Part shown: one piece after another, positions 6,169 through 42,412 of the stretch
Layout: each line of letters starts with the position of its first letter
Position numbering within the stretch: position 1 is the stretch's first letter
Virus record (IMG/VR): IMGVR_UViG_3300030116_007267
Span: 1 to 53,440 of that record
DNA: 53,440 bases
Source: a virus
Strand: one strand, 5' to 3'
Notes under the pieces: model-generated
What the model was told of the DNA's origin: nothing
Database searches by the model: none
The model's input: the letters and a program-made list of their open reading frames with translations, nothing else
Made by a program: the position numbers and the translations under genes

Positions 6169-7101
6169 CTAAAAATCATTAGGTTCTTCTAAATAAATAC
6201 TTTCATAACAAGCAGCAAGTAATTTAGCCTTGCCACTGACATAAAAGGGATCAGAAAAACTATCAATCACCCTATATGCTTGCACATCTGGCTTTTTCAT
6301 CAAAACCGCTGCCATGTATCCGCAAATCATTTGACGAGTGTATTCAGGCTCGCCAGTAATTTGCCTTAGTACTGATATTATAGACGACCATTCTGCTCGC
6401 TTCAATAACAATTGACAAAGTTTCTTAACCTCGTCTGGAGCATTCCCTTGGGCAATTGCTTCTAACTGGAGATCTTCATTCTCAATGCCTTGCACCGTTT
6501 GCAAAAGCACCAACGCCTGACGAGCCGAACCCTCTGCGGCTTCAACAATAGACAAACCAACTTCCCTAGTTAGTTTGATATTTTCTAATTTGCACGCCTC
6601 TTTCAACACTTCTTTTACTTCAGCATCCGACAACGCTTTTAGCTGAATATGCATACACCTTGTGTGTATAGCCTTTTTCAACTTAGCCGGATTCGTAGTG
6701 CAAAGCATAAAATACACATGCGCTGGAGTATCTTCTAAGATCTTCAACAACGCTTCTTGTGCTGGAAAAGTAAGTTGATGCGCTTCATCTAAAAGATAAA
6801 TTCGACAATCACCATCTAATGGCATGGCATGGCAATTGTATTGCACCTCTCTGATTGTCTCGATGCCACGATCATTTGCCGCATTCATCTCAACAAAATC
6901 AACATCAGAACAACCTAATTCATTCTTTAAGATGCGCACAATCGTCGTCTTGCCACATCCAGATGGACCACTAAAAAGCAGACTACTAGGTAGCTTACCA
7001 GAACGTTTTAACGTCTCTATCGCTGCTTCCTGGCCCACAATCTGATCAAACGCCTCGGGCCTATGCCGTCTATAAATTTCTCTCGCATCCCCCTCATTCA
7101 T
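6169..7101 (-). CDS. Sliding clamp loader AAA+ ATPase (RFC/DnaX-like)
   Basis: A 310-residue AAA+ protein. It opens with YRRHRPEAFDQIVGQ, the typical RFC small subunit/DnaX start, followed by Walker A GPSGCGKTT, Walker B IYLLDEAHQL, sensor 1 CTTNP and a TRC arginine-finger motif (SRC equivalent) before HIQLKALSD. It should form the loader that opens the phage clamp encoded at 9589-10536. A strong GAAGGAGG site precedes the start, and the gene overlaps the end of the polymerase by 4 bases. Only one loader subunit gene is visible, so the complex may be a homo-oligomer or may include a protein not recognised here. Confidence 0.9.
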   Translation of the reverse strand: MNEGDAREIYRRHRPEAFDQIVGQEAAIETLKRSGKLPSSLLFSGPSGCGKTTIVRILKNELGCSDVDFVEMNAANDRGIETIREVQYNCHAMPLDGDCRIYLLDEAHQLTFPAQEALLKILEDTPAHVYFMLCTTNPAKLKKAIHTRCMHIQLKALSDAEVKEVLKEACKLENIKLTREVGLSIVEAAEGSARQALVLLQTVQGIENEDLQLEAIAQGNAPDEVKKLCQLLLKRAEWSSIISVLRQITGEPEYTRQMICGYMAAVLMKKPDVQAYRVIDSFSDPFYVSGKAKLLAACYESIYLEEPNDF

Positions 7102-8438
7102 ATCTCTATTTCCTCCTTCTCATACCAATTTTTACGACTACCTTCAGCTTCTATATCAAGAGGTACTATCAACCATTTATAGTGGTCTACGACATCCTTC
7201 GTCATAACTTCTTTAGCTTTTTTCAAAACTAAATCTAATTCATCTTCATGCACATCCCAAACAATACTATCGTGGATTTGACCAATAATGAGACTCTTCA
7301 TTCCCGCCTCATTTAACCACTGCTGTAGTTTCATCAACGACCACAACAAACAATGGAATGCTGCACCTTGTACTGGCGCATTGATGCACTCGTTTCTTTT
7401 GCGATCTCCCCGGTACGGAAATCCTGACAACATCATCAACTCACCAGTCTTTTGGTATTTTTCCCAAAGATCTTTTTTCCACTGATCGTAGACCGGAAAA
7501 CGAATGTTCCAAAAATCATTTTCGACTTGTCTAATATGCTGGGTAAAATCAGACAAATTTCTGATGCCCACCGACTTTAAATGCTCACGCATCGGAACGT
7601 CTTGCTGCGTCCGTATGTCATCTGTGCTAATAGTTTCCCACATTGCAGGAGCTATTTGTTGGTAATACGATCCATAAAACGCTGGAAAGACAAATCCACC
7701 CTTAGCCGATACACGCGCCGCTTTAGATAGTTGCTCTGGCTGCAACTTATAACACTCTATTGCCATGTCCGCATGTAAATCCTTGCCCTCACGAATGTAA
7801 GAAAGCATTGCTGGATCTTTGTGGTAGCACGCTGCTACACGTACCTCCACTGCGGAATAATCTATTTCTAAAAGCAAATGGTTTGGTCTTGGAATAAACA
7901 GAGATCGAATGTACTTGCTTGTTTGCTTATCCCTAACTGGCACATTCTGAAAGTTTGGATTCGATGAGGAAGAACGAAAAGTATCAATGTTGTGGAGGTT
8001 AAATACAGGATGTAAATAACCATCAACCACTTCACGCTCTAAAGCACTAATGTACGTATCTCTAATCTTCATTAACTTTTTTAATGCACGATACTTTGCA
8101 ATAAAAGGATGGTTAATGTTTTCGAGATCGGCAGAAGAAACACTAGGTCGCCCAGTAGCCGTAAAGTTTTGCGGCTTATAACCTAGCTTGTCAAACAGCA
8201 ACGTTTTTAATTGATCATTGCTGCGTAAATTAGCAGAAGCTTTATACTCTTTTTCCCAAATCGACCACCACTTAGATCGATACAAACGCTTTTCAAGCTT
8301 ACTAATCTCATCACCAAGTTCGATCTTTACCTCTTTTAATCTGTCGGTATCTATTCTAATACCGTTAGATTCAACTTGTGCTAAAGCCATGCTGGCATCA
8401 ACAAGTAGATCGACCGCCTGATTGGTTGGTTTGAGCAT
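7098..8438 (-). CDS. Family A DNA polymerase, polymerase domain only
   Basis: The palm, fingers and thumb of a PolA-type polymerase are encoded alone (about 446 aa). Motif A is LEIDYSAVEVRVAACY. Motif B (O helix) is RVSAKGGFVFPAFYG, one residue longer than in E. coli Pol I. Motif C is GQIHDSIVWDV with the catalytic His-Asp. A thumb-like start, DASMALAQVESNGIRID, is present, but there is no exonuclease domain. GGGGA seven bases before the ATG at 8438 favours that codon over the ATG at 8444. The gene starts inside the preceding UDG-exonuclease gene in another frame, so the two should be made in coupled fashion and likely assemble into one enzyme. Confidence 0.9.
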   Translation of the reverse strand: MLKPTNQAVDLLVDASMALAQVESNGIRIDTDRLKEVKIELGDEISKLEKRLYRSKWWSIWEKEYKASANLRSNDQLKTLLFDKLGYKPQNFTATGRPSVSSADLENINHPFIAKYRALKKLMKIRDTYISALEREVVDGYLHPVFNLHNIDTFRSSSSNPNFQNVPVRDKQTSKYIRSLFIPRPNHLLLEIDYSAVEVRVAACYHKDPAMLSYIREGKDLHADMAIECYKLQPEQLSKAARVSAKGGFVFPAFYGSYYQQIAPAMWETISTDDIRTQQDVPMREHLKSVGIRNLSDFTQHIRQVENDFWNIRFPVYDQWKKDLWEKYQKTGELMMLSGFPYRGDRKRNECINAPVQGAAFHCLLWSLMKLQQWLNEAGMKSLIIGQIHDSIVWDVHEDELDLVLKKAKEVMTKDVVDHYKWLIVPLDIEAEGSRKNWYEKEEIEI

Positions 8439-9588
8439 CGACATTTCCCCGCTGCATCATGGCTATCTTGTATTCCAAAATACAGTCAAGCGCATTGTAT
8501 TTTAAAAGATCTTTTATCGGTGCCTGTCTTATCTGATTAGCAGAATTTGCACTATCTGATTTGAAATACTTTGCAACTGTGTCGTAGGCTGGATATCCTA
8601 ATAAAGAGAACGCTTGAAACTTTACACCTACCACGCCTTTTCTATTATCAATAGCATGTGCTGCAAGCATCGTATCCCAAATAGGTTTTTTAATAGACGT
8701 ACCACATTTTGCCCTAGTCCATCTATCTTCAAACTTTAGATTTGCACCAATGATTGGTACTTGTTCGACTAACTTTTTCCACGTAGGTATGATTGCTTCG
8801 TGCCATGGAAACGCTATTGTCTCCTTGCCTCGCCAACAGACACCCGCACTAACTATTTCAGCACACTCAGCATCCGGCTTAATCGTCGTCGTTTCATAAT
8901 CAACAGCAACTGGTTTACCTGACAGAATATACTTTTCTAAATACGGGATAGCCTCTCGCGGATCATACAACAGAGTTAAAGGAAACTCTTTAATCTCTTT
9001 GTGCGGCCTGCCCACTAATTCATAAGCAGACATAAATTGTTTTTTAAACAAATTTTTGCCAGTTACACTAGAGTCTTCCTGTGCAAATCGTATTGGATTT
9101 TCAACAGGACAAATCCAAGCATTTAATTCCCTAGACGGGATCTGCAAACCAAACCATCGTTGTGTATTGCCAATGTCTTCATGCCATAGATGGCCGATCA
9201 CTGACAATATGCTTGGATAACCTAAAAGAATAATCGTGGTTGGTTGTAGTCGTTTTATTTCTTTAAAAACGTTAGATCGACAATAACGAATCTCTTCGGG
9301 AGTAGCCCGTCCACGACAGATGATAGACGTTAACATCCATGTATCGACATCCAAATCGTAACCGTCCTTCGCCACCATCTGCCGCAGACTATGGGCGATT
9401 CCTCCTGAAAATAGACGACCGCTGACATCATCCTGTTCAGTTGGATGATCGCCTATTATTAAGATCCGTCTCTCTCCTTTTCCTACCACTTCCTGTTTTG
9501 GCGTTAAGCAATCTTTATACAGACCGCACTTTTCACACAAAGGAACTGCAACTGATAATGTTTTTAACTCTTCCTCATTAAAAAACAT
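8398..9588 (-). CDS. UDG-like domain fused to DnaQ-type 3'-5' exonuclease
   Basis: The first about 190 residues resemble family 4 uracil-DNA glycosylases. Four cysteines (18, 21, 91, 103) could hold a 4Fe-4S cluster, with IIGDHPTEQDDVSGRLFSGG in the place of the active-site loop. The loop differs from the usual GEAPG, so activity is uncertain. The second part has exonuclease motifs: VDYETT near 228, NLKFEDRW near 286 and YNALDCILEYK near 365. Some phages of the SPO1 type carry UDG-like, exonuclease and polymerase domains in one protein. Here translation stops 47 bases into the polymerase reading frame, leaving the proofreading half as a separate 396-residue protein. Confidence 0.8.
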   Translation of the reverse strand: MFFNEEELKTLSVAVPLCEKCGLYKDCLTPKQEVVGKGERRILIIGDHPTEQDDVSGRLFSGGIAHSLRQMVAKDGYDLDVDTWMLTSIICRGRATPEEIRYCRSNVFKEIKRLQPTTIILLGYPSILSVIGHLWHEDIGNTQRWFGLQIPSRELNAWICPVENPIRFAQEDSSVTGKNLFKKQFMSAYELVGRPHKEIKEFPLTLLYDPREAIPYLEKYILSGKPVAVDYETTTIKPDAECAEIVSAGVCWRGKETIAFPWHEAIIPTWKKLVEQVPIIGANLKFEDRWTRAKCGTSIKKPIWDTMLAAHAIDNRKGVVGVKFQAFSLLGYPAYDTVAKYFKSDSANSANQIRQAPIKDLLKYNALDCILEYKIAMMQRGNVDAQTNQSGGRSTC

Positions 9589-10536
9589 TTACATACTTTC
9601 AATACTTATAGCATATTGAAATGATTCCCCCTGGAGAATCATTGCATTTTGTGTAATTAAACAAGAATTCCCTAAACTGTTCAAACGTCTAAACAACTTA
9701 ATCGGCAGTTTTAAGACTTTGGGCTCGTCGCTCGTATACAAAACCTTTACTTGTTCTTTATACGAAGATCCCTCTGAAGTACTATTTATCTCACAGCAAT
9801 TTTCCGAAAACGTAATTTGTATCTCATGATCCGACTTGCACAATGTAGAACAACGCTGTAGGGCTTGTGCTAACTCTTCTGAAAATTCTAGATAAGAACC
9901 ATTTTCTACATTCAACAATTTGTCAAGTTTTGGATAAGGCTGGTTAAAACGAGCAAACGCACTTAAAACTCCGTTGTGATCAATGATTAAATGATTTGCT
10001 GTGGTGCCTACCTTTGCTCCTGGCAATATGTTTTGAGCTGCTTGGAGGCTAAACAACCCGCTAATCCCGTAGTCTCCGTAGCAACGATAAAGCTGATACC
10101 CGTCACAACCTTCAATAAAATCTTTCGTGACATGAATACAGGTCAATGCATGTACGTGATGGTTTTTGCTTACCGACTTTGATGCTTGACTAAACGTTTG
10201 TGATAACTGTTCTGTTACTTCCAACCACTCTATCGGCACATCAAATAGTGGTACTTTAGTTAGCTCGATCTTCGAAATCTTTGCGGATCTTTCACCTTGA
10301 GTAATTATGTAATTTTTAGCAGTCTCCCGAATATCCGCATCATCATCAAAATTAGACAAGGTTGTTTGCAAGAGACGCGCATTGAATGCTACGGGACTTT
10401 CAAAAAATTCAAAAGGAGTTGTCATAAGCAACTCCTCTGTTTGCGCAGATGCTGATTGATCATCAAACACAATAGTTGTGGCTTTGGCTGCAATAAACTT
10501 GCCAACTACTTCTCTAAGCGCTTTAAGATTTCCCAT
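9589..10536 (-). CDS. Probable DNA sliding clamp (DnaN-like)
   Basis: A 315-residue, beta-rich protein between the helicase-associated gene and the polymerase genes. The segment from about 150, including CIHVTKDFIEGCDGYQLYR, matches the pattern in DnaN repeats where a strand is followed by a TDGHRL-like turn. Similar spaced strands occur in the last 100 residues. A clamp is expected because a clamp loader gene lies 2.5 kb downstream in the same operon. Good AAAGGA precedes the ATG at 10536. Similarity is weak by eye and the identification leans partly on context. Confidence 0.6.
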   Translation of the reverse strand: MGNLKALREVVGKFIAAKATTIVFDDQSASAQTEELLMTTPFEFFESPVAFNARLLQTTLSNFDDDADIRETAKNYIITQGERSAKISKIELTKVPLFDVPIEWLEVTEQLSQTFSQASKSVSKNHHVHALTCIHVTKDFIEGCDGYQLYRCYGDYGISGLFSLQAAQNILPGAKVGTTANHLIIDHNGVLSAFARFNQPYPKLDKLLNVENGSYLEFSEELAQALQRCSTLCKSDHEIQITFSENCCEINSTSEGSSYKEQVKVLYTSDEPKVLKLPIKLFRRLNSLGNSCLITQNAMILQGESFQYAISIESM

Positions 10537-15517: not shown

Positions 15518-16228
15518 TTAATATGTTTTGCAAGTATGCCGACATCTATAAACACCTGGAATATCTAAACCAGTTCCTGGAATTTCAACGATTTTTCTAA
15601 ATGCTAAATCATCTTGAAAATCACCAAATGGCTTACCATCCGTTCTTGGCTTTGACCATTTACCAGTCGGCACATATCCATTTTGCCTTGCCCAATGACC
15701 GTTGACTATTTGAATACCACCAATAGCTCGGCTATGCCTTTTCTTTTTCCAAGTTGATACATCTGGTATTCCGGTAACATTTTTTGCCAAATCATCGCCT
15801 TCACTATGTGAGCGCTGAATGTAACCAAACTTTGGATAAAACAAAATTGCTTCTCTATTTATAGAGGAATAAGCTTTATCTACTTGTATTGCGATATCTG
15901 GACTAAAGAAATAATCGACATCTGTAAACCAATAAAACTTAGGCAAATCACCAGAATGTGTGGGTAACTTTGTTGCTCGATTCCGCCCAATGCTGCGACG
16001 AAACAATTCCGCATCGCGCATCGCTAATGGAATCAATACGTTACCCATCTGGTCTATATACTCATTAATAACATTAACTGTTTGAGCATCTTCTAAACAA
16101 AAGCAAACCACAATATCAATACCAGGAGTATGGTTTGCTGCTGCTTTGATAGACTCCAATTGGATTTTTAAAAAACTAGCATATTGATAATTATTTTTAG
16201 CGTAGCAATGTGAAACAAATCTAATCAT
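15518..16228 (-). CDS. Glycosyltransferase-like protein (GT-A type)
   Basis: A 236-residue protein. The N-terminus IRFVSHCYAKNN begins like a GT-A nucleotide-binding strand. Later FRRSIGRNRATK and FYWFTDVDYFF follow the order of an R-x-x-x-RN segment then a DxD metal site, as in family 2-like glycosyltransferases. It probably moves a sugar from a nucleotide donor. It is the last gene of the cassette and overlaps the KdsB-like gene by 4 bases, so donor synthesis and transfer may be linked. The acceptor is unknown. Confidence 0.55.
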   Translation of the reverse strand: MIRFVSHCYAKNNYQYASFLKIQLESIKAAANHTPGIDIVVCFCLEDAQTVNVINEYIDQMGNVLIPLAMRDAELFRRSIGRNRATKLPTHSGDLPKFYWFTDVDYFFSPDIAIQVDKAYSSINREAILFYPKFGYIQRSHSEGDDLAKNVTGIPDVSTWKKKRHSRAIGGIQIVNGHWARQNGYVPTGKWSKPRTDGKPFGDFQDDLAFRKIVEIPGTGLDIPGVYRCRHTCKTY

Positions 16229-16938
16229 GAGAGCCTTTCAATCGACGAAACAATACTTCTAAAGGCTTCTAGATCTTCTCGATTATTAATGCTTAATGGC
16301 AATCCTGAAATTTCATGTGCGCGAATTGAAAAATCAAAATCTAACCAAGATATCTGTTCTAATGATTCAAAATTAGCATTTGAAGACACAGGAATTCTTT
16401 TAATTTCTTGCAAAGTAGACATGGTATATCCATAAATTCCCACATGACCCCATGTCGAAATTCGTTGTCGGCTAAACCATTTGCAATAATTTGTGGGATT
16501 GATTGCCACTTTCACCATATCCCGATTCATTTGCTCGATATACTCACCGGAAAGTTTTGAAACCATAGTATCTACAGCACCAATACTATTTCGATTTTCG
16601 TACATCATCGAAACATCATTTATTTCAAGCATTGGCTCATCTACTTGCCAATTAACAATGTAATCCTCTTTATGAAATTCCTTTATGGTTGCTGCTGCTG
16701 CAACTCTTTGTGTTCCATTTTTGTATGCAACACTATCATCAAAAACTACACCTCCACCAAATCTACAAACCTCGTCACAAATATCTTGACTATCTGTAGC
16801 TACTAAAACTCTGGTGGCTTGTGGCACTTTCGATGCGCGTTCATATGTGTGCTGGAGCAAGGTCTTATTATTAATTCGTAATAACGGCTTTGACGGTAGA
16901 CGCTCGGATTCCATACGAGCAGGTATGATGATAATCAC
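16225..16938 (-). CDS. KdsB-like CMP-sugar synthetase
   Basis: The 237-residue protein aligns by eye with 3-deoxy-manno-octulosonate cytidylyltransferase throughout. It has IPARMESERLPSKPLL (CTP-binding start), LLQHTYERA, VLVATDSQDI, FGGGVVF, NGTQR and IVNWQVDEP, where QGDEP is usual. The family joins CTP and a 3-deoxy-ulosonic acid to make a CMP-activated sugar for outer-membrane glycans. The start is a GTG at 16938 (GGGAG seven bases upstream), overlapping the sulfotransferase stop as GTGA. A phage copy would raise the supply of CMP-Kdo or a relative for the neighbouring transferases. Confidence 0.8.
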   Translation of the reverse strand: MIIIIPARMESERLPSKPLLRINNKTLLQHTYERASKVPQATRVLVATDSQDICDEVCRFGGGVVFDDSVAYKNGTQRVAAAATIKEFHKEDYIVNWQVDEPMLEINDVSMMYENRNSIGAVDTMVSKLSGEYIEQMNRDMVKVAINPTNYCKWFSRQRISTWGHVGIYGYTMSTLQEIKRIPVSSNANFESLEQISWLDFDFSIRAHEISGLPLSINNREDLEAFRSIVSSIERLS

Positions 16939-17486
16939 CTTCGGGCTCCCGAATAGGAAACATCGTAATCAAATTGTTCAATAAAACTTAATTCCGCCTC
17001 AATCACTTGCTCGTATTGCTTAGAATCCCAAACAAAATTACGAGTTTTAGAATTTACTCTATCTGGCATAACAGGCTTAGTAATATTAAACGTATCGCAC
17101 AAATCAAAAAAACAATGTGGCGCGTCTTCAATTCGTAAATACGTATGCGCTGAATACGACAAAAACATTTGCCCAACACAACCAGATGCATGATTTAAAT
17201 AGTTATCTATAAAATGATCGAAATACACCCAATCAGAAGAAAGCTTGGCAAAGCGATCAACAGAAGGCACTCCTAAAATGGCACCTTTGATCACATTAAA
17301 ATAACTAGCTAACCAATCACAAGGATGGCGTACCATAGAAATCTTATAGATGTCGGTACGTGTATCTGGAAGATGAACTGTAGCCTTGTGACCAATACCT
17401 AAACCAGCATTTGCTGCCGCTTGCATAAACCACGTCGACCCACTCCTTGGCGCGGATGCAAAAGAAAAATCCTTATAGTCAATCAT
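16935..17486 (-). CDS. Sulfotransferase-fold protein
   Basis: In this 183-residue protein residues 11-20 (SAPRSGSTWF) form the 5'-phosphosulfate-binding loop of PAPS-dependent sulfotransferases. MVRHPCDWLASYF (from residue 51, with Arg53 and Ser61) matches the 3'-phosphate-binding motif. These enzymes move sulfate from PAPS to hydroxyl groups of sugars or proteins. The protein is short for the family (usually over 250 aa), but both signature motifs are intact. It lies between a methyltransferase and the KdsB-like gene, so a sugar is the likely acceptor. Confidence 0.75.
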   Translation of the reverse strand: MIDYKDFSFASAPRSGSTWFMQAAANAGLGIGHKATVHLPDTRTDIYKISMVRHPCDWLASYFNVIKGAILGVPSVDRFAKLSSDWVYFDHFIDNYLNHASGCVGQMFLSYSAHTYLRIEDAPHCFFDLCDTFNITKPVMPDRVNSKTRNFVWDSKQYEQVIEAELSFIEQFDYDVSYSGARR

Positions 17487-18055
17487 CCCCTAAACACCAT
17501 TATCTTGTTTTTATATTTTGGTTTTGCAATAGCCTCTTTAGCTATATATGTCTTCTCTTCATCAAAAACGAATCCGCCAACCCTATACAACAATTGGCTA
17601 ATATGACCAGGATGGTGACAATTTACATGTCCATACCCACGGTCTTCTTTACCTGCCCATGTAATGACTAACCATCGGCGAGCTAAATGAGCTAGATTTT
17701 TAATAAAATCAGTTTCATACCTAGGTGGAATATGCTCACCAACCTCAAAACAAATTCCCCAAGTAGATTGATGTAAAGCACATTTATTGATATCGAATTT
17801 GGACAAATCAAACTCATGAACTAATCCGTTTGTTGCATCCTCAATTCCTGGAGTGCCATCAATCCCTGTAGCACGCCAACCTTCATCACGCATAGCTTGC
17901 ACATGACAACCATTACCCGTACCAATATCTACAACAGTTTCACTGTGAGGTATCAATGCACGAAACACTGCCATGTAGTTAGGACTAATTCGCTGCCTTG
18001 ATCCTTGAAACTCTGGAGAGTATGCACCATTTTCTAAGGTTTTATTATCCACCAA
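17483..18055 (-). CDS. Class I SAM-dependent methyltransferase
   Basis: The protein (about 190 aa) starts with TTG at 18055 or GTG at 18052, after GGGGAAA. Motif I VVDIGTGNGCHVQAM, a GIDGTPG acidic loop and later EVGEHIPPRYE (motif IV-V region) match the Methyltransf_11-like fold. It should transfer a methyl group from S-adenosylmethionine to a small molecule or glycan. The end overlaps the sulfotransferase start by 4 bases. Confidence 0.75.
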   Translation of the reverse strand: MVDNKTLENGAYSPEFQGSRQRISPNYMAVFRALIPHSETVVDIGTGNGCHVQAMRDEGWRATGIDGTPGIEDATNGLVHEFDLSKFDINKCALHQSTWGICFEVGEHIPPRYETDFIKNLAHLARRWLVITWAGKEDRGYGHVNCHHPGHISQLLYRVGGFVFDEEKTYIAKEAIAKPKYKNKIMVFRG

Positions 18056-18588
18056 ATTTTTCCCCGATCTGGTCCATTGACGGTTAAGCCTCTCGCGGCT
18101 GCAAATTCATCTACCGCTCTTTTAACATCTATTTTTGAATTCTTTGAATGCCGGTTTCTATAATCATGCCCACTAAATAAACCACCACTTCGAACAGCAG
18201 ACCACCAAGCATGTAGATCTCGCTTCACTGCTTCATAACGATGATCGGCATCGATGAATACAAAATCCATCATAATCAATCCTTTTGCAGCTCGTGCGCT
18301 ATCAGTTTGTATGACAAATCTTCGATGACCATGCTTTCTAGTTCTGCTAAGCGCTTGTTCTTTTGCCTGCTGCATATCTTCAATTGATGCTTGGTTCATA
18401 TTTGAACCTTCATATGGCTTCCAACGATCCACCATATAAAGCATTTTTAATTCGGGTAACTCATTTAAAAGAGTCTCTGATAATTCACCCTGCCAAACAC
18501 CAATCTCTGCACCAATAATATTATTACTAGTGTGCTGTATTACATGCTCGCGACACAAATGAAGTAAAGTTTTAATATGACTACGCAT
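18034..18588 (-). CDS. SAM-dependent methyltransferase (Methyltransf_24-like)
   Basis: In this 184-residue protein GAEIGVWQGELSETLL is motif I, MVDRWKPYEGS is the acidic second strand and FVFIDADHRYEAVKRDL is motif IV, with the D-A-DHxY pattern typical of the Methyltransf_24/CmcI-like group often found in polysaccharide clusters. GGLFSGHDY supports the same call. It is coupled by TAATG to the glycosyltransferase upstream. Confidence 0.8.
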   Translation of the reverse strand: MRSHIKTLLHLCREHVIQHTSNNIIGAEIGVWQGELSETLLNELPELKMLYMVDRWKPYEGSNMNQASIEDMQQAKEQALSRTRKHGHRRFVIQTDSARAAKGLIMMDFVFIDADHRYEAVKRDLHAWWSAVRSGGLFSGHDYRNRHSKNSKIDVKRAVDEFAAARGLTVNGPDRGKIWWIIKP

Positions 18589-19526
18589 TACTTAACCACA
18601 TAATCTTTATAAGGATGATCAACTTTTTCTGGCTCATAGGTAGGATCAAGAAATGGCGGTAAGCGATGGTTGTTACATAAAGGCGACCACTCTTTAGCTT
18701 TGCATTTATTAGTCTCTAAAAACTGCTTAAAGATATGAAACCACATAGCATGGCCTCTAACTGCTTTGTTAGGACGCACAAAAGAGGCACCATGACCATG
18801 CCAAACAACTACATCATCATCTTCTAAACCTTTAGGTTGATATTTCATTGTGCTGCAATTGTATTTACCACCCAACAAAACATTAACCTGATCCGCATAT
18901 TTAATTTGCAAACATTGGAATGTGGTTTCGTCTGCAATAAATACACCCGCCGCTTTAATAGACCAATCTCTCCACTCTTTCAAAATTTTAGAATTCTTTT
19001 CAGCAGAAAATACACCAACATTTGGACTCGGATAAGGATTCGTTATCGCCTGATTGACATACTCATGCTCTATGCCCTCAATGTCTAACAAACGCTTAAT
19101 TCGAGTTACCATAATCGGTTTGTTTGTATGCCAATCACAAAATTGAGTTGTGGTGACTTCAAAACCTTCTGATTCGACAAAGAAATCATCAATCGGATTA
19201 TTAATTAAAGTATCCGCATCTAATAACATCCCACCGCGATCATAAATAATTTCAATCTTATGAATTAGATGGCGCTTGCGTGCCTTTTGACCAGGACTAG
19301 CAACTACAACCTGTACATTGTCGTATGCCTTCGCAATCTCTTGGCAAATATCTACAGAATTAATCGTGCAATGTCTGCGCTCTCTGGGAGACATTGCGCT
19401 TTCCGGCCAAGCATGTAAATTGATCGGAATGTCTGGAGAATGATGTCGTAAAGTTTCAACACTGCAAACAAGAAAACACGCATGTGCTGGATGAGATAGC
19501 AAATAGTTAATTTCTTTAGGTATCAT
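18588..19526 (-). CDS. Glycosyltransferase with DxD motif
   Basis: A 312-residue protein. IEIIYDRGGMLLDADTLINN holds the typical RGGxYxDxD-like signature of glycosyltransferases that share the GT32/GT8 sugar-transfer fold (here GGMLLDAD). Preceding segments (INLHAWPES) are like the nucleotide-sugar-binding half, and VVVWHGHGASF near the end resembles the family's closing histidine motif. Substrate unknown. It overlaps the FkbM gene by 11 bases. Confidence 0.7.
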   Translation of the reverse strand: MIPKEINYLLSHPAHACFLVCSVETLRHHSPDIPINLHAWPESAMSPRERRHCTINSVDICQEIAKAYDNVQVVVASPGQKARKRHLIHKIEIIYDRGGMLLDADTLINNPIDDFFVESEGFEVTTTQFCDWHTNKPIMVTRIKRLLDIEGIEHEYVNQAITNPYPSPNVGVFSAEKNSKILKEWRDWSIKAAGVFIADETTFQCLQIKYADQVNVLLGGKYNCSTMKYQPKGLEDDDVVVWHGHGASFVRPNKAVRGHAMWFHIFKQFLETNKCKAKEWSPLCNNHRLPPFLDPTYEPEKVDHPYKDYVVK

Positions 19527-20250
19527 GTTCCATCATTTTTAACGTAAACGGACAAGTACACCAACGCGAGTCAAACAACTTTCGCTTGACATACACACAA
19601 TCAACTTGTCCTGCATAAGCTTTAGTCGTATGAAAAAACTGACGTACAAATCCAAATCTATGAAGGATCTCATGTATTTGTATAGGAGTATCCCAACCCA
19701 AGCCTGGAGGATTACTAGTCAGTTCAACATTTATCATATCCGTATGTTTTAAAAACTCTGTTGCACAATCTAATACTTTTCTTTCTGTGCCTTCACAATC
19801 CAACCACAGCAAAGATTTTTTATCTGGTACCGGCTCCCAAACTTTATCTAATTGCCGAACGATAATTGGCACTGATTGATCATACCCGTCTGCAATTGTG
19901 CCTTCATGTGGCAATAAACTAGCACCGTCTTTATGACGATTGCGCCAATACAAGGTGCCGCTGCCACAATAATTACTAAAAGCAATTGGCAACATTTCAC
20001 CTGGATATTTTTCTTGTAGATTTAAAAAAGATTGAGGATGAGGCTCTACTGCAAAAAATTCTGGTTGATCACATAAAAAATCTAAACACTGCCATTCTTC
20101 AGCATTTACACCTACACCAACCTGATGAATTACTTCGGGATACCAATTCAGGAACGTTAAAATATTACAAATACCAATACCACTACGTCGAGAAAGTAAA
20201 CTCTTATCTCCATTCTCAATCAGTTTTTCTATTTTTGATTTCCGAGTCAT
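19516..20250 (-). CDS. FkbM-family methyltransferase
   Basis: In the 244-residue protein HQVGVGVNAEEWQCL replaces the usual DVGAN motif I, FAVEPHPQSFLNL is the second motif and LLWLDCEGTERKVLDC is the FkbM signature (usually LKIDVEGAE). TDMINVELTS follows as expected. FkbM enzymes O-methylate sugars and natural products and are common in glycan and phage-decoration clusters. The start overlaps the previous gene as ATGA. Confidence 0.8.
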   Translation of the reverse strand: MTRKSKIEKLIENGDKSLLSRRSGIGICNILTFLNWYPEVIHQVGVGVNAEEWQCLDFLCDQPEFFAVEPHPQSFLNLQEKYPGEMLPIAFSNYCGSGTLYWRNRHKDGASLLPHEGTIADGYDQSVPIIVRQLDKVWEPVPDKKSLLWLDCEGTERKVLDCATEFLKHTDMINVELTSNPPGLGWDTPIQIHEILHRFGFVRQFFHTTKAYAGQVDCVYVKRKLFDSRWCTCPFTLKMMEHDT

Positions 20251-21059
20251 GATAACGCTCTCGCAGATTGCGCTCGAACTGCATTAATTCCATTTGTCCA
20301 AACCCAACCACGCTTCTTTGCACTGAACGTGCGAATTTGACAACCTATACGTGCCGCACAATACCACACATAACCATCTTGTGACGGTACCGGAAGTTGA
20401 TCTGGTCCACATGTACGTTCCGCCATTTGCGATATGACTCGCGTAAATGCAGTGTTGTAAAAAGAAACATAAGAAATGATTCTCTTATGCTTAACTTTAT
20501 TTGCTCCCTCCTCTGGGCGCAAATTTAACGGTTTGTTCTGCGCTAATAATTGAAGAGGACTATCTGCACCAGATCCATATTGATCTACCCAGTCATCAAG
20601 TTTCAACATTTGATTTGCTGGTTTTGTATATCCCCATGGTGGTGAAATAATTGCAGGTTGAAACTCAAACCAACTTTCATCAATCCAATCATCATCACCT
20701 GTAGCAACCATGTCCGTATCTATTTTTAACCAATACGGTGTAGAAACCGTTATTGCAGGGACATGCACAAAACCAGCAAGCATTTTATATCGCTGTGGAT
20801 TTGACCATTTAGAAGAATTGTTACCAGCAAATTCAGTATTTCCTGATTGAGGCCAAGGAACGTATGTAATTTTCATCGACGCTTTTGCTTTTAACGTCGA
20901 TTGGATTTCATGTGCAGTTACCTCAGATCGATCATAAAAAATTACAAAAGGTTGCTGCATCAATGATGGTTTGTTTGCTTGCCACGTTTCCCATGAATAA
21001 GCAAGTTGTGTTAAATGTGCTTTATCAACACCGATAACTATCGTGTAGTTGGTAAACAT
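20247..21059 (-). CDS. Glycosyltransferase-like protein
   Basis: The 270-residue protein starts YTIVIGVDKAHL, a GT-A-like first strand, and has YWLKIDTDMVATGDDDW, a DxD-type metal and nucleotide-sugar site in mid-sequence. VSFYNTAF and SQDGYVWYCA follow in the acceptor half. No exact family can be given. It overlaps the cupin gene by 22 bases and the FkbM gene by 4. Confidence 0.6.
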   Translation of the reverse strand: MFTNYTIVIGVDKAHLTQLAYSWETWQANKPSLMQQPFVIFYDRSEVTAHEIQSTLKAKASMKITYVPWPQSGNTEFAGNNSSKWSNPQRYKMLAGFVHVPAITVSTPYWLKIDTDMVATGDDDWIDESWFEFQPAIISPPWGYTKPANQMLKLDDWVDQYGSGADSPLQLLAQNKPLNLRPEEGANKVKHKRIISYVSFYNTAFTRVISQMAERTCGPDQLPVPSQDGYVWYCAARIGCQIRTFSAKKRGWVWTNGINAVRAQSARALS

Positions 21060-21478
21060 TTAGCTATATCTCGATGCAAAGCTTCTATTGAATCTATCCC
21101 ACCAACATCCAGACGACAAATATCATCTGCTCGGCAGGTACCCCCACGATCCGGCCAATACACTTCAACCATTTCACCATCTTCTAATACACGAAATCGA
21201 TGTATGACTGTAGAAGGTACCGTATAGTGATCGCCCGCATTTAAAATCTTTAATGTTTTTAAAGAGGGATCGTAATTAGTAATAGTCGTATCCCATTCTT
21301 CAATTACAACCTTACCGCTAATAACATAAAAAGCATTTGCTCGATCTTCATGATAATGACGAGAACATCTTGTTCCTCGTTTTACTTTTAGATGACTTAC
21401 TGCGGCTCCTTGATCACAAAACATGTGAACCACTTCACCCCAACATTTCTTTTCATGTTTCGGTGTAAACGGACCCAT
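21038..21478 (-). CDS. Cupin-domain protein
   Basis: This 146-residue beta-barrel protein has cupin motif 1 in SRHYHEDRANAFYVISGKV (His41 and His43) and motif 2 in AGDHYTVPSTVIHRF (His93), the metal-binding pattern of sugar isomerases and epimerases such as the C-terminal domain of type II mannose-6-phosphate isomerase. It probably processes a sugar or nucleotide sugar for the cassette. GGATGA precedes the ATG, and the previous stop overlaps as TAATG. Confidence 0.75.
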   Translation of the reverse strand: MGPFTPKHEKKCWGEVVHMFCDQGAAVSHLKVKRGTRCSRHYHEDRANAFYVISGKVVIEEWDTTITNYDPSLKTLKILNAGDHYTVPSTVIHRFRVLEDGEMVEVYWPDRGGTCRADDICRLDVGGIDSIEALHRDIAKCLPTTR

Positions 21479-40756: not shown

Positions 40757-41108
40757 CTGTAGTTCGTCTTCCTAATAGTACACGCCAAAAAACACCTAAG
40801 CCTACCGTACCATCAGGCTTTGCTGCACTAAGGACATCATATTCTTCAGGATTTGGTGCTTGCGGATTTGTAATCGTTACCACATGCTCCTTAGTAATAC
40901 CTGGATCTTCTTGAAAATATACTTTGCAAGTAACACGAAATCCTTCACGTCCAAATTCGTTAGACTCGCCCTCTGTAGTAAACTGCTGCCAACACTTCTT
41001 TCCTGTAAAAACAGTTGTAAGTGTTTCAAATTGACCACCAAATTGATCAACAGCAGTGCTTCGAATTTTTGCACTCGCGGTATGTGGTAAATTACCTAAT
41101 ATTCCCAT
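40749..41108 (-). CDS. Putative head closure/connector protein (119 aa)
   Basis: The protein starts GILGNLPHTASAKIRSTAVD and has LTTVFTGKKCWQQFTT, RVTCKVYFQEDP and VGLGVFWRVLLGRR. Its size and beta-rich layout are compatible with small head-closure proteins (SPP1 gp16-type), but the match is weak. GGGAAGATAATC precedes the ATG. It lies 2 bases after the metallophosphoesterase gene. Confidence 0.4.
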   Translation of the reverse strand: MGILGNLPHTASAKIRSTAVDQFGGQFETLTTVFTGKKCWQQFTTEGESNEFGREGFRVTCKVYFQEDPGITKEHVVTITNPQAPNPEEYDVLSAAKPDGTVGLGVFWRVLLGRRTTDA

Positions 41109-41110
41109 GA

Positions 41111-42412
41111 TTATCTTCCCATTGGTCCACCAGTGTAATTATTTAAATTACACTGTAATCTAGCGATTGGACCTTGTTCTTGATCCCAAATAAACGCCAT
41201 GGCACCTCTCTTTTGCCATGTAAATCCTTTAACCGTATGCCATGCATTATTGGCAGTTAGCCCTGGAAGATATTCAACCGATACACCTTGCTCCTCAAAC
41301 ATTGCAGGTTTTCCAGTACCCTTACGATGTTGGTCGCCTAGATGCCATTCTCTCCAACCACCAGCAGTCTCTGACCAATCTTGAGGCGCTTCATTTGCCA
41401 TAATAGAAGCTAATCGCAAAGCATTAATTGAATGTCCATGTTCAAATCCAATTAGATTGCATCCAAATCTATAAAACTTATAAGGCTTTGCAGAGGCATC
41501 TACATTAACGTTTGGATCATTGCGATAATAAGCATTCAAAACTCTAGCCAATGTATAAACAGATTGGCGATCATGATTTCCAGGAACACTTAAAATTTTT
41601 ACTGGAGCTACTTGTTTTAAACGTTCTATTGCAGCAATAGCTAATTGCTCACCTCTTAAATAAATGTAATGCCACGGCAATGATTCTGCCTGTGCTGTAC
41701 CTGCTGTAGTTGTATGCGCTACATTATCTACATGCAAAAAATCATTACCAAAAGGAAATACAATTTCAGTAATATTTTCATAACGAGATGATTGATCAAT
41801 CAAATTCTCAATTGCCCACATAAACAATTGTTCGCAATCCTCCAATGAATACGCATCTTGGCATTCAGGTGGATAACAATTAAGTCCTAAATGTGGATCA
41901 CAAATTGAAATTTCTAAAGAACGTTTTGATATTTTTTTAGACGGCTTCTTGTATTTGATACGAGGAACCACTGGAGAGTTTTCTTCAACCAACTCTAACA
42001 GATTTTCTAAAGCTAACCGTTCATCACTTTTACGTCTAAAGACTGCACGAATACGCCGCAATGGCATTTTCCACAGACTATCTTTTAACTTTCCACCAAC
42101 TTCCCAATTTGTTGAATCAACTCGATCTATCTCAAAGACATTCATATCAATATCAATGTCTTTAATTAAATCTTCAATAGTGACTATTTTTTTACCGACA
42201 TAAGACACTGTTAGTGTCGCATCTGTTTCAGTCGTTTTCACACATTCTTTTAAATTGCCCTGCCTATCTACTAATTCACGCTTTGCTTGGGCTACACGAT
42301 CTCTAAGTGTGGTTCTAGGAAGACCTAAGACTTTTGCAGCTTTAGCTACAGAACCATACCGCTCTACAGCTTCTAGCGCTTGGCATAATTGATCAAGATT
42401 AAGTTCACTCAT
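41111..42412 (-). CDS. HTH-linked metallophosphoesterase
   Basis: The 433-residue protein begins with LCQALEAVERYGSVAKAAKV and GLPRTTLRDRVAQAKRE, a helix-turn-helix like Fis/HTH_8. A calcineurin-type phosphoesterase domain follows: ISICDPHLGLN (DxH), VFPFGNDFLHVDN, SVPGNHDRQSVYT (GNHD), GFEHGHS and GDQHRKG. The metal-binding residues look complete, so it should be an active phosphodiesterase or nuclease that is targeted to DNA by the HTH. It is joined by 4 bases to the ClpP gene in the head connector region, so it may act on DNA ends at packaging or on nucleotides. Confidence 0.8.
   Translation of the reverse strand: MSELNLDQLCQALEAVERYGSVAKAAKVLGLPRTTLRDRVAQAKRELVDRQGNLKECVKTTETDATLTVSYVGKKIVTIEDLIKDIDIDMNVFEIDRVDSTNWEVGGKLKDSLWKMPLRRIRAVFRRKSDERLALENLLELVEENSPVVPRIKYKKPSKKISKRSLEISICDPHLGLNCYPPECQDAYSLEDCEQLFMWAIENLIDQSSRYENITEIVFPFGNDFLHVDNVAHTTTAGTAQAESLPWHYIYLRGEQLAIAAIERLKQVAPVKILSVPGNHDRQSVYTLARVLNAYYRNDPNVNVDASAKPYKFYRFGCNLIGFEHGHSINALRLASIMANEAPQDWSETAGGWREWHLGDQHRKGTGKPAMFEEQGVSVEYLPGLTANNAWHTVKGFTWQKRGAMAFIWDQEQGPIARLQCNLNNYTGGPMGR

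Follow-up and report, generated by a model that had tools for sequence, protein, structure and literature searches.

Can the proofreading exonuclease of a family A DNA polymerase be a gene product of its own, or is a polymerase gene found in two pieces simply broken? The question is raised by IMGVR_UViG_3300030116_007267, a full 53,440-base IMG/VR record from an uncultured bacterial virus (the whole of this stretch is called the window below). In it, a uracil-DNA glycosylase (UDG)-like and exonuclease protein, here exo, and a polymerase domain, here pol, are encoded by two overlapping genes:

8398..9588, minus strand: gene 1, UDG-like and 3'-5' exonuclease protein (exo), 396 amino acids
7098..8444, minus strand: gene 2, exonuclease-less family A DNA polymerase domain (pol), 448 amino acids (446 from 8438)
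8398..8444, minus strand: overlap of the two genes, 47 nucleotides (41 nucleotides if pol starts at 8438)
8446..8450, minus strand: GGGGA, a Shine-Dalgarno-like site 7 nucleotides ahead of the ATG at 8438

The comparisons presented here indicate that the split is real and old, not a sequencing error. We propose, with a probability of about 0.74, that the two genes encode a two-subunit family A replicase in which a UDG-like/exonuclease protein serves as a separate proofreading subunit.

The exo protein matches the Pfam families UDG (PF03167, 1.7e-10) and DNA_pol_A_exo1 (PF01612, 9e-7), and the pol protein matches DNA_pol_A (PF00476, 1.8e-57). Gene 1 ends inside the pol gene, whose reading frame is +1 relative to that of exo. 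The initial annotation of this locus had described two overlapping open reading frames (ORFs) sharing 47 bases, with pol in the other frame, and its coordinates are exact. It had also given pol a GGGGA site of its own, which is present but fits the in-frame second ATG (8438, 7 nucleotides away) and not the first (8444, 1 nucleotide away). Because this spacing is too short for the first ATG, and because the pol of close relatives begins at the site matching 8438 (MKPT.., MKPI..), the true start is probably 8438, for a protein of 446 amino acids and an overlap of 41 nucleotides. Contig IMGVR_3300030419_007282 (99.6% over 11.3 kb) carries exactly this junction; in it, exo differs from the window by 2 nucleotides and no amino acid and pol by 16 nucleotides and 4 amino acids.

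Where the cut falls was judged on AlphaFold2 models of exo (predicted local distance difference test, pLDDT, 84; predicted template modelling score, pTM, 0.82) and pol (pLDDT 88, pTM 0.83). Two domains are predicted in exo:

9004..9546, minus strand: family-4-UDG-like domain, residues 15-195; VIA-align Z 20.7 to 4zbx and 20.4 to 1l9g
8431..8991, minus strand: 3'-5' exonuclease domain, residues 200-386, equivalent to Klenow 324-519; Z 21.2 to 1kfs/1kln

Foldseek ranks 9qhs, the single-chain polymerase of phage phiLo, first among the matches to the exo model. The pol model corresponds over its whole length to Klenow 519/520-928 (Z 31-33; Z 33.1 to 8oo6 residues 520-928), and its palm-fingers-thumb fold, like its Pfam match, places it in family A. 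In these models the cut sits at the exo/pol domain boundary, Klenow residue 519/520, and the two proteins tile the full Klenow fragment plus the UDG-like domain with no part lost or repeated.

Relatives were fetched from viral and genome collections with exo and pol profiles, and each locus was classified by its reading frames. In the non-redundant set of 128 loci (<90% polymerase identity), exo and pol are split in 119 and fused in 9, a ratio that describes pattern-fetched, similarity-ranked relatives and is not a population frequency. The split is thus clade-wide, which the initial annotation did not see. Its claim of a separate start for the polymerase is borne out by these loci, whose junctions are highly variable. 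The genes overlap in 47 of the 119 split loci, most commonly by the 4-base ATGA type (16/47); gaps reach at least 100 nucleotides in 66 and at least 300 nucleotides in 52, with a maximum of 4,359 nucleotides. Genes sitting between exo and pol include those for ThyX, dCTP deaminase, MazG, ribonucleotide reductase, a DNA methylase, an HNH nuclease and DnaJ. Where the two genes are adjacent, all three relative frames occur (31, 17 and 4 loci). A contig of 171,649 bases, assigned to a Planctomycetaceae bin, holds both genes 111 kb apart (exo 41101-42330, pol 153802-155664). The split also prevails in the non-redundant subset fetched with the polymerase only, where 35 of the 36 loci holding both genes carry them separately.

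Since junctions vary across the 119 split loci, the split cannot be put down to a base error or to a conserved frameshift. A single base error or true frameshift mutation breaking one gene in this assembly could be suspected from the short overlap and the +1 frame of pol, but the same junction recurs in the second contig, 118 further lineages are split, mostly with unrelated spacing, and both halves retain their catalytic residues. The survey already refutes this account, to which we give practically no weight, and together with the second contig it rules out assembly error. Programmed +1 frameshifting at the overlap, yielding some fused chain, could draw on the same overlap and frame and on the natural fused chains among relatives. 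We nevertheless hold it to be highly improbable: adjacent relatives use three frames, ATGA is the commonest overlap, the genes do not overlap in more than half of the split lineages, and no known slippery site was seen at the window junction. In its conserved form it is ruled out by the variable frames, the ATGA junctions and the inserted genes. Nor is there support for an intron or an intein separating exo from pol, the intervening genes being ordinary and varied.

The retained residues on the polymerase side lie in the following motifs:

7845..7862, minus strand: motif A, D195-E200, with D195 and E200 in 128/128 sequences
7671..7715, minus strand: O-helix R244..K248..F253..Y257-G258, one extra residue relative to the outgroup
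7266..7274, minus strand: motif C, HDS

In motifs A, B and C the catalytic residues expected of family A are all present (D195, E200, R244, K248, Y257, G258, H391 and D392). The O-helix, KxxFVFPxFYG, is one residue longer than in the single chains L103, L104 and L112, and motif C reads HDS, not HDE, in 115 of the 128 sequences.

The history of the split was read from a polymerase tree rooted on an SPO1-like chain and from a concatenated tree; an exo-only tree contained many unresolved forks and served as a check only. The single chains L103, L112, L191, L192, L018 and L020 are found near the base, L112 being, as judged by sequence, a bacterial Pol I. The remainder of the polymerase tree consists of 118 split rows and two fused rows. 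One of the latter, L085, groups with its split kin L084 and L171 (support 100* in the concatenated tree, 98* in the polymerase tree), and the other, L161, is placed among split rows with support of 84-95. Forcing all in-clade fused rows together was rejected (approximately unbiased test, p-AU 7e-11). As fused forms are basal, L085 is nested and a single fused clade is rejected, the trees indicate that most splits go back to a single event in a one-chain ancestor and that exo and pol were joined again in at least one lineage (L085). L161 is likely a second re-fusion, and L197, a basal split row on a long branch, may be a separate, independent split. The initial annotation held that relatives fused at the same junction would speak against the split. 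Such relatives exist (9/128), yet they do not undermine it, because an ancestor is expected to be fused, as the outgroup is, and the fusion in L085 arose anew within the split clade.

Whether the separate exonuclease could still proofread depends on its active site, which comprises:

8893..8901, minus strand: ExoI, D230 and E232, invariant in 128/128
8728..8742, minus strand: ExoII, NLKFE, N283-E287, with E287 at the Klenow D424 position and Glu in 126/128
8485..8499, minus strand: ExoIII, YNALD, Y364-D368, with D368 in 128/128 and Y364 in 126/128

Against a background in which the majority residue of a column averages a fraction of 0.54 over the 128 exo sequences, this conservation suggests that the exonuclease site is in use. 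The fold is DnaQ-like (Z 21.2 to the Klenow exonuclease domain). The catalytic set departs from the canonical DEDDy: D230, E232, Y364 and D368 are present, while the ExoII residue is E287, a replacement of Asp by Glu that the initial annotation had also missed. E287 was assigned to ExoII by the motif spacing N-x-x-F/Y-D/E, and the Asn of NxxF[DE] is kept in 120/128. Asp at this position occurs only in L103 and L104, which are single-chain outgroup phage sequences. The Glu was not forced by the search, because all 36 polymerase-fetched sequences keep the exonuclease residues and read D-E-E-Y-D. A literature search for activity data on Glu at the Klenow D424 position found none.

The N-terminal domain of exo has fared differently. 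Its features are:

9427..9453, minus strand: degenerate UDG motif A, GDHPTEQDD, residues 46-54 (relatives GEAPGxxED)
9535..9537, minus strand: predicted iron-sulfur (Fe-S) ligand Cys18
9526-9528, minus strand: predicted Fe-S ligand C21
9316-9318, minus strand: predicted Fe-S ligand C91
9280-9282, minus strand: predicted Fe-S ligand C103

All four cysteines expected of a family 4 UDG are thus found, the cluster being predicted from sequence. Among the split lineages C91 and C103 are kept in 119/119, C18 in 116/119 and C21 in 115/119, the exceptions for C18 and C21 being mostly truncated N-termini. The catalytic motifs GE(A/G)PG and HPxxx are not recognisable in the window, which reads GDHPT and NPIRF. 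The first of these departures had been pointed out in the initial annotation, and the second motif reads NPIR(F) where relatives have HPSY, with the motif C His replaced by Asn (N164). The key residues (E and P of GEAPGxxED, H of HPSY) are canonical in 100 of 126 relatives and degenerate in 26, the window included, with decay scattered over the tree (18 changes). Motif loss is therefore recurrent, and it spares the Fe-S core and the exonuclease. In the window the domain has probably lost glycosylase activity and persists as an Fe-S module with a structural or DNA-binding role. That it is still an active glycosylase, or a uracil or modified-base sensor coupled to the replicase, could be argued from the motifs kept in 100/126 relatives, the retained Fe-S cysteines and the carboxylate D47, which remains in the window motif A. 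We find this quite unlikely in view of N164 and the degenerate motif A, and of a decay that is scattered while the cysteines stay, as expected for a non-catalytic role.

The two genes lie in a replication cassette ordered helicase, short ORF, clamp, UDG-exo, pol and clamp loader, with the following neighbors:

9589..10536, minus strand: sliding clamp (DNA polymerase processivity factor), directly upstream of exo; phrog_947, 4e-17
6169..7101, minus strand: clamp loader AAA+ subunit, whose start overlaps the pol stop by 4 nucleotides; phrog_5846, 2e-59

The clamp stop abuts the exo start, and in the set as a whole 84 loci have a clamp immediately upstream and 97 a loader immediately downstream. 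In the sequence of events that we propose, an ancestral UDG-exo-pol single chain would have been cut exactly at the exo/pol domain boundary, leaving a polymerase subunit of thumb, palm and fingers alone and a partner with the Fe-S UDG-like domain followed by the 3'-5' exonuclease domain. Both subunits would be made together from one cassette with the clamp and clamp loader. They would most likely be joined non-covalently at the fork, via the old exo-pol interface and/or the clamp, and mispaired 3' ends would be handed to the exonuclease subunit, as they are to epsilon for Pol III. Separate genes that are conserved together, as in an epsilon-like polymerase-proofreader pair, are what the survey found, and the re-fusion in L085 argues for an exo-pol partnership. 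Proofreading in trans also has a family A precedent, since exo- and pol- mutants of Pol gamma complement each other in flies and in vitro (PMC4773887). For the exonuclease, the initial annotation had suggested a role as a subunit or action in trans. Its premise of separate genes is strongly supported, but sequence does not settle between a subunit and transient action in trans.

Several points weigh against a two-subunit replicase. Beyond the sampling behind the 119:9 ratio, the Glu at ExoII takes the catalytic set away from DEDDy, so that activity is not assured. The sequences and models establish the separate genes, their domain boundaries, conservation and history; from these we infer complex formation, exonuclease activity, clamp tethering and the loss of UDG activity. 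In a mirror-tree analysis, exo-pol distances were correlated (r 0.56, partial 0.27, 0/500 permutations) no more strongly than exo-clamp distances (r 0.65, partial 0.43), which does not single out the polymerase as the partner; as proof of a specific exo-pol partnership the mirror-tree result was thus set aside as positive but not specific. The exo protein might instead be an independent repair or clamp-associated nuclease, leaving the polymerase without proofreading or with proofreading only by chance encounters. The drift of exo and pol up to 111 kb apart, the closer agreement of exo distances with the clamp, and the capacity of the isolated PolA exonuclease domain ExnV1 to fold and bind metal alone (PMC9629493) would fit this idea. 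We regard it as unlikely, since the exo gene is found nearby in polymerase-fetched loci holding both genes (35/36 split), the partial exo-pol correlation is still positive and L085 re-fused the two genes.

The higher exo-clamp correlation suggests that the clamp may be a partner of the exonuclease subunit. At its N-terminus (window 9550-9588), exo has GFF just behind the start codon, in a disordered tail 19-20 residues ahead of the first Fe-S cysteine. An N-terminal GFF is found in 80 of the 119 split lineages and FF in 97, and the motif is practically absent at the starts of other ORFs. We speculate that GFF is a candidate clamp-binding motif; a clamp motif of another form, QxxLF, has been described in actinobacterial PolA2 (PMC12926913). 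A more specific version of the two-subunit replicase, which we offer tentatively and as rather doubtful, would have a UDG-like/exonuclease subunit with a D-E-E-D metal site tethered to the clamp by its disordered N-terminal GFF, such that the clamp, and not the polymerase chain, recruits proofreading in a large clade of uncultured phages.

How does this arrangement compare with known systems? SPO1-type UDG-exo-pol chains (L104 from Bacillus phage SBSphiC, the phiLo polymerase 9qhs, MW202455) have the same three domains in the same order, and SPO1-like relatives are indeed single chains, as first annotated (L104, 925 amino acids). They form one chain throughout, whereas the window has two ORFs in different frames and so falls outside this type. 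L104 and L103 keep the ExoII Asp and L104 lacks three of the Fe-S cysteines, while the window has Glu and keeps the cysteines. In the Klenow fragment of E. coli Pol I, the counterparts of exo (324-519) and pol (519-928) are one chain, not two; Klenow has an ExoII Asp, HDE in motif C and no UDG-like domain. Family 4 UDGs and UdgX resemble the window domain in fold (Z about 20) and in the arrangement of Fe-S cysteines but differ from it in that the window copy lacks both catalytic motifs. Bacterial Pol III alpha and epsilon are likewise separate polymerase and proofreading exonuclease polypeptides that work with a clamp system, but alpha is a family C polymerase and epsilon a DEDDh exonuclease, and the polymerases are not kin. 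In group 1 jumbo phages the exonuclease is predicted to associate as a standalone protein, but with a divergent family B polymerase and with no UDG-like domain reported (PMC7824862). MEP401-type phages encode PolA in two ORFs, but the break lies inside the polymerase domain, is thought to be intron-like and leaves the exonuclease fused to the N-terminal part of the polymerase (PMC10580990). ExnV1, an isolated exonuclease domain, was judged a truncated gene (PMC9629493).

No exo/pol split was seen in the named-phage records inspected, for which tblastn sensitivity was limited. The best polymerase identities to named phages were <30%, and the ORFs inspected, four in number plus L103 and L104, each encode one chain of about 800-925 amino acids; when individual exo sequences were searched against named phages, no more than 7 and 21 weak matches were returned. 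Our open-access literature search found no account of a PolA divided between its exonuclease and polymerase domains in which both pieces are conserved, an earlier description elsewhere being possible. On the sequences compared here, the clade-wide two-gene family A polymerase with a separate, predicted proofreader is a new form of a known polymerase type.

Some further observations concern the relatives and the rest of the window. At L203 85-1980 (G001:C529), on a 171-kb contig, about 140 amino acids are inserted in frame into the polymerase at a conserved RSS/NPNFQN site. The insert, with Cys first, HN last and then Ser, is mini-intein-like. At L102 (Weizmannia phage Youna2, 3887-7156) a UDG-exo-pol is annotated as two pieces; the break is apparently inside the polymerase domain and intron-like, and differs from the split in the window. 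Relatives L105-L111 come from contigs of metagenome-assembled genomes labelled Lokiarchaeota, Parcubacteria, Bacillota, Shapirobacteria, Planctomycetaceae, Deferribacterales and Thioalkalivibrio, which are probably binned phage contigs, with no isolate among them. Between the replication and tail genes of the window lies a block of ORFs (15518-21478), some of whose starts resemble glycosyltransferase or nucleotidyltransferase genes.

Family A enzymes normally carry their polymerising and proofreading sites on a single chain. In this clade the chain has been cut at a domain boundary, with both pieces kept in more than 100 lineages and re-fused at least once. This would provide a natural separable system in which to study how a mispaired 3' end travels from polymerase to exonuclease, and in which one may ask whether a clamp can replace the covalent link. 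It also raises the question of why an Fe-S UDG-like domain persists on the putative proofreading subunit after loss of its glycosylase motifs. Finally, the finding corrects the annotation of such polymerases, which appear to be exonuclease-free until the second gene is recognised.

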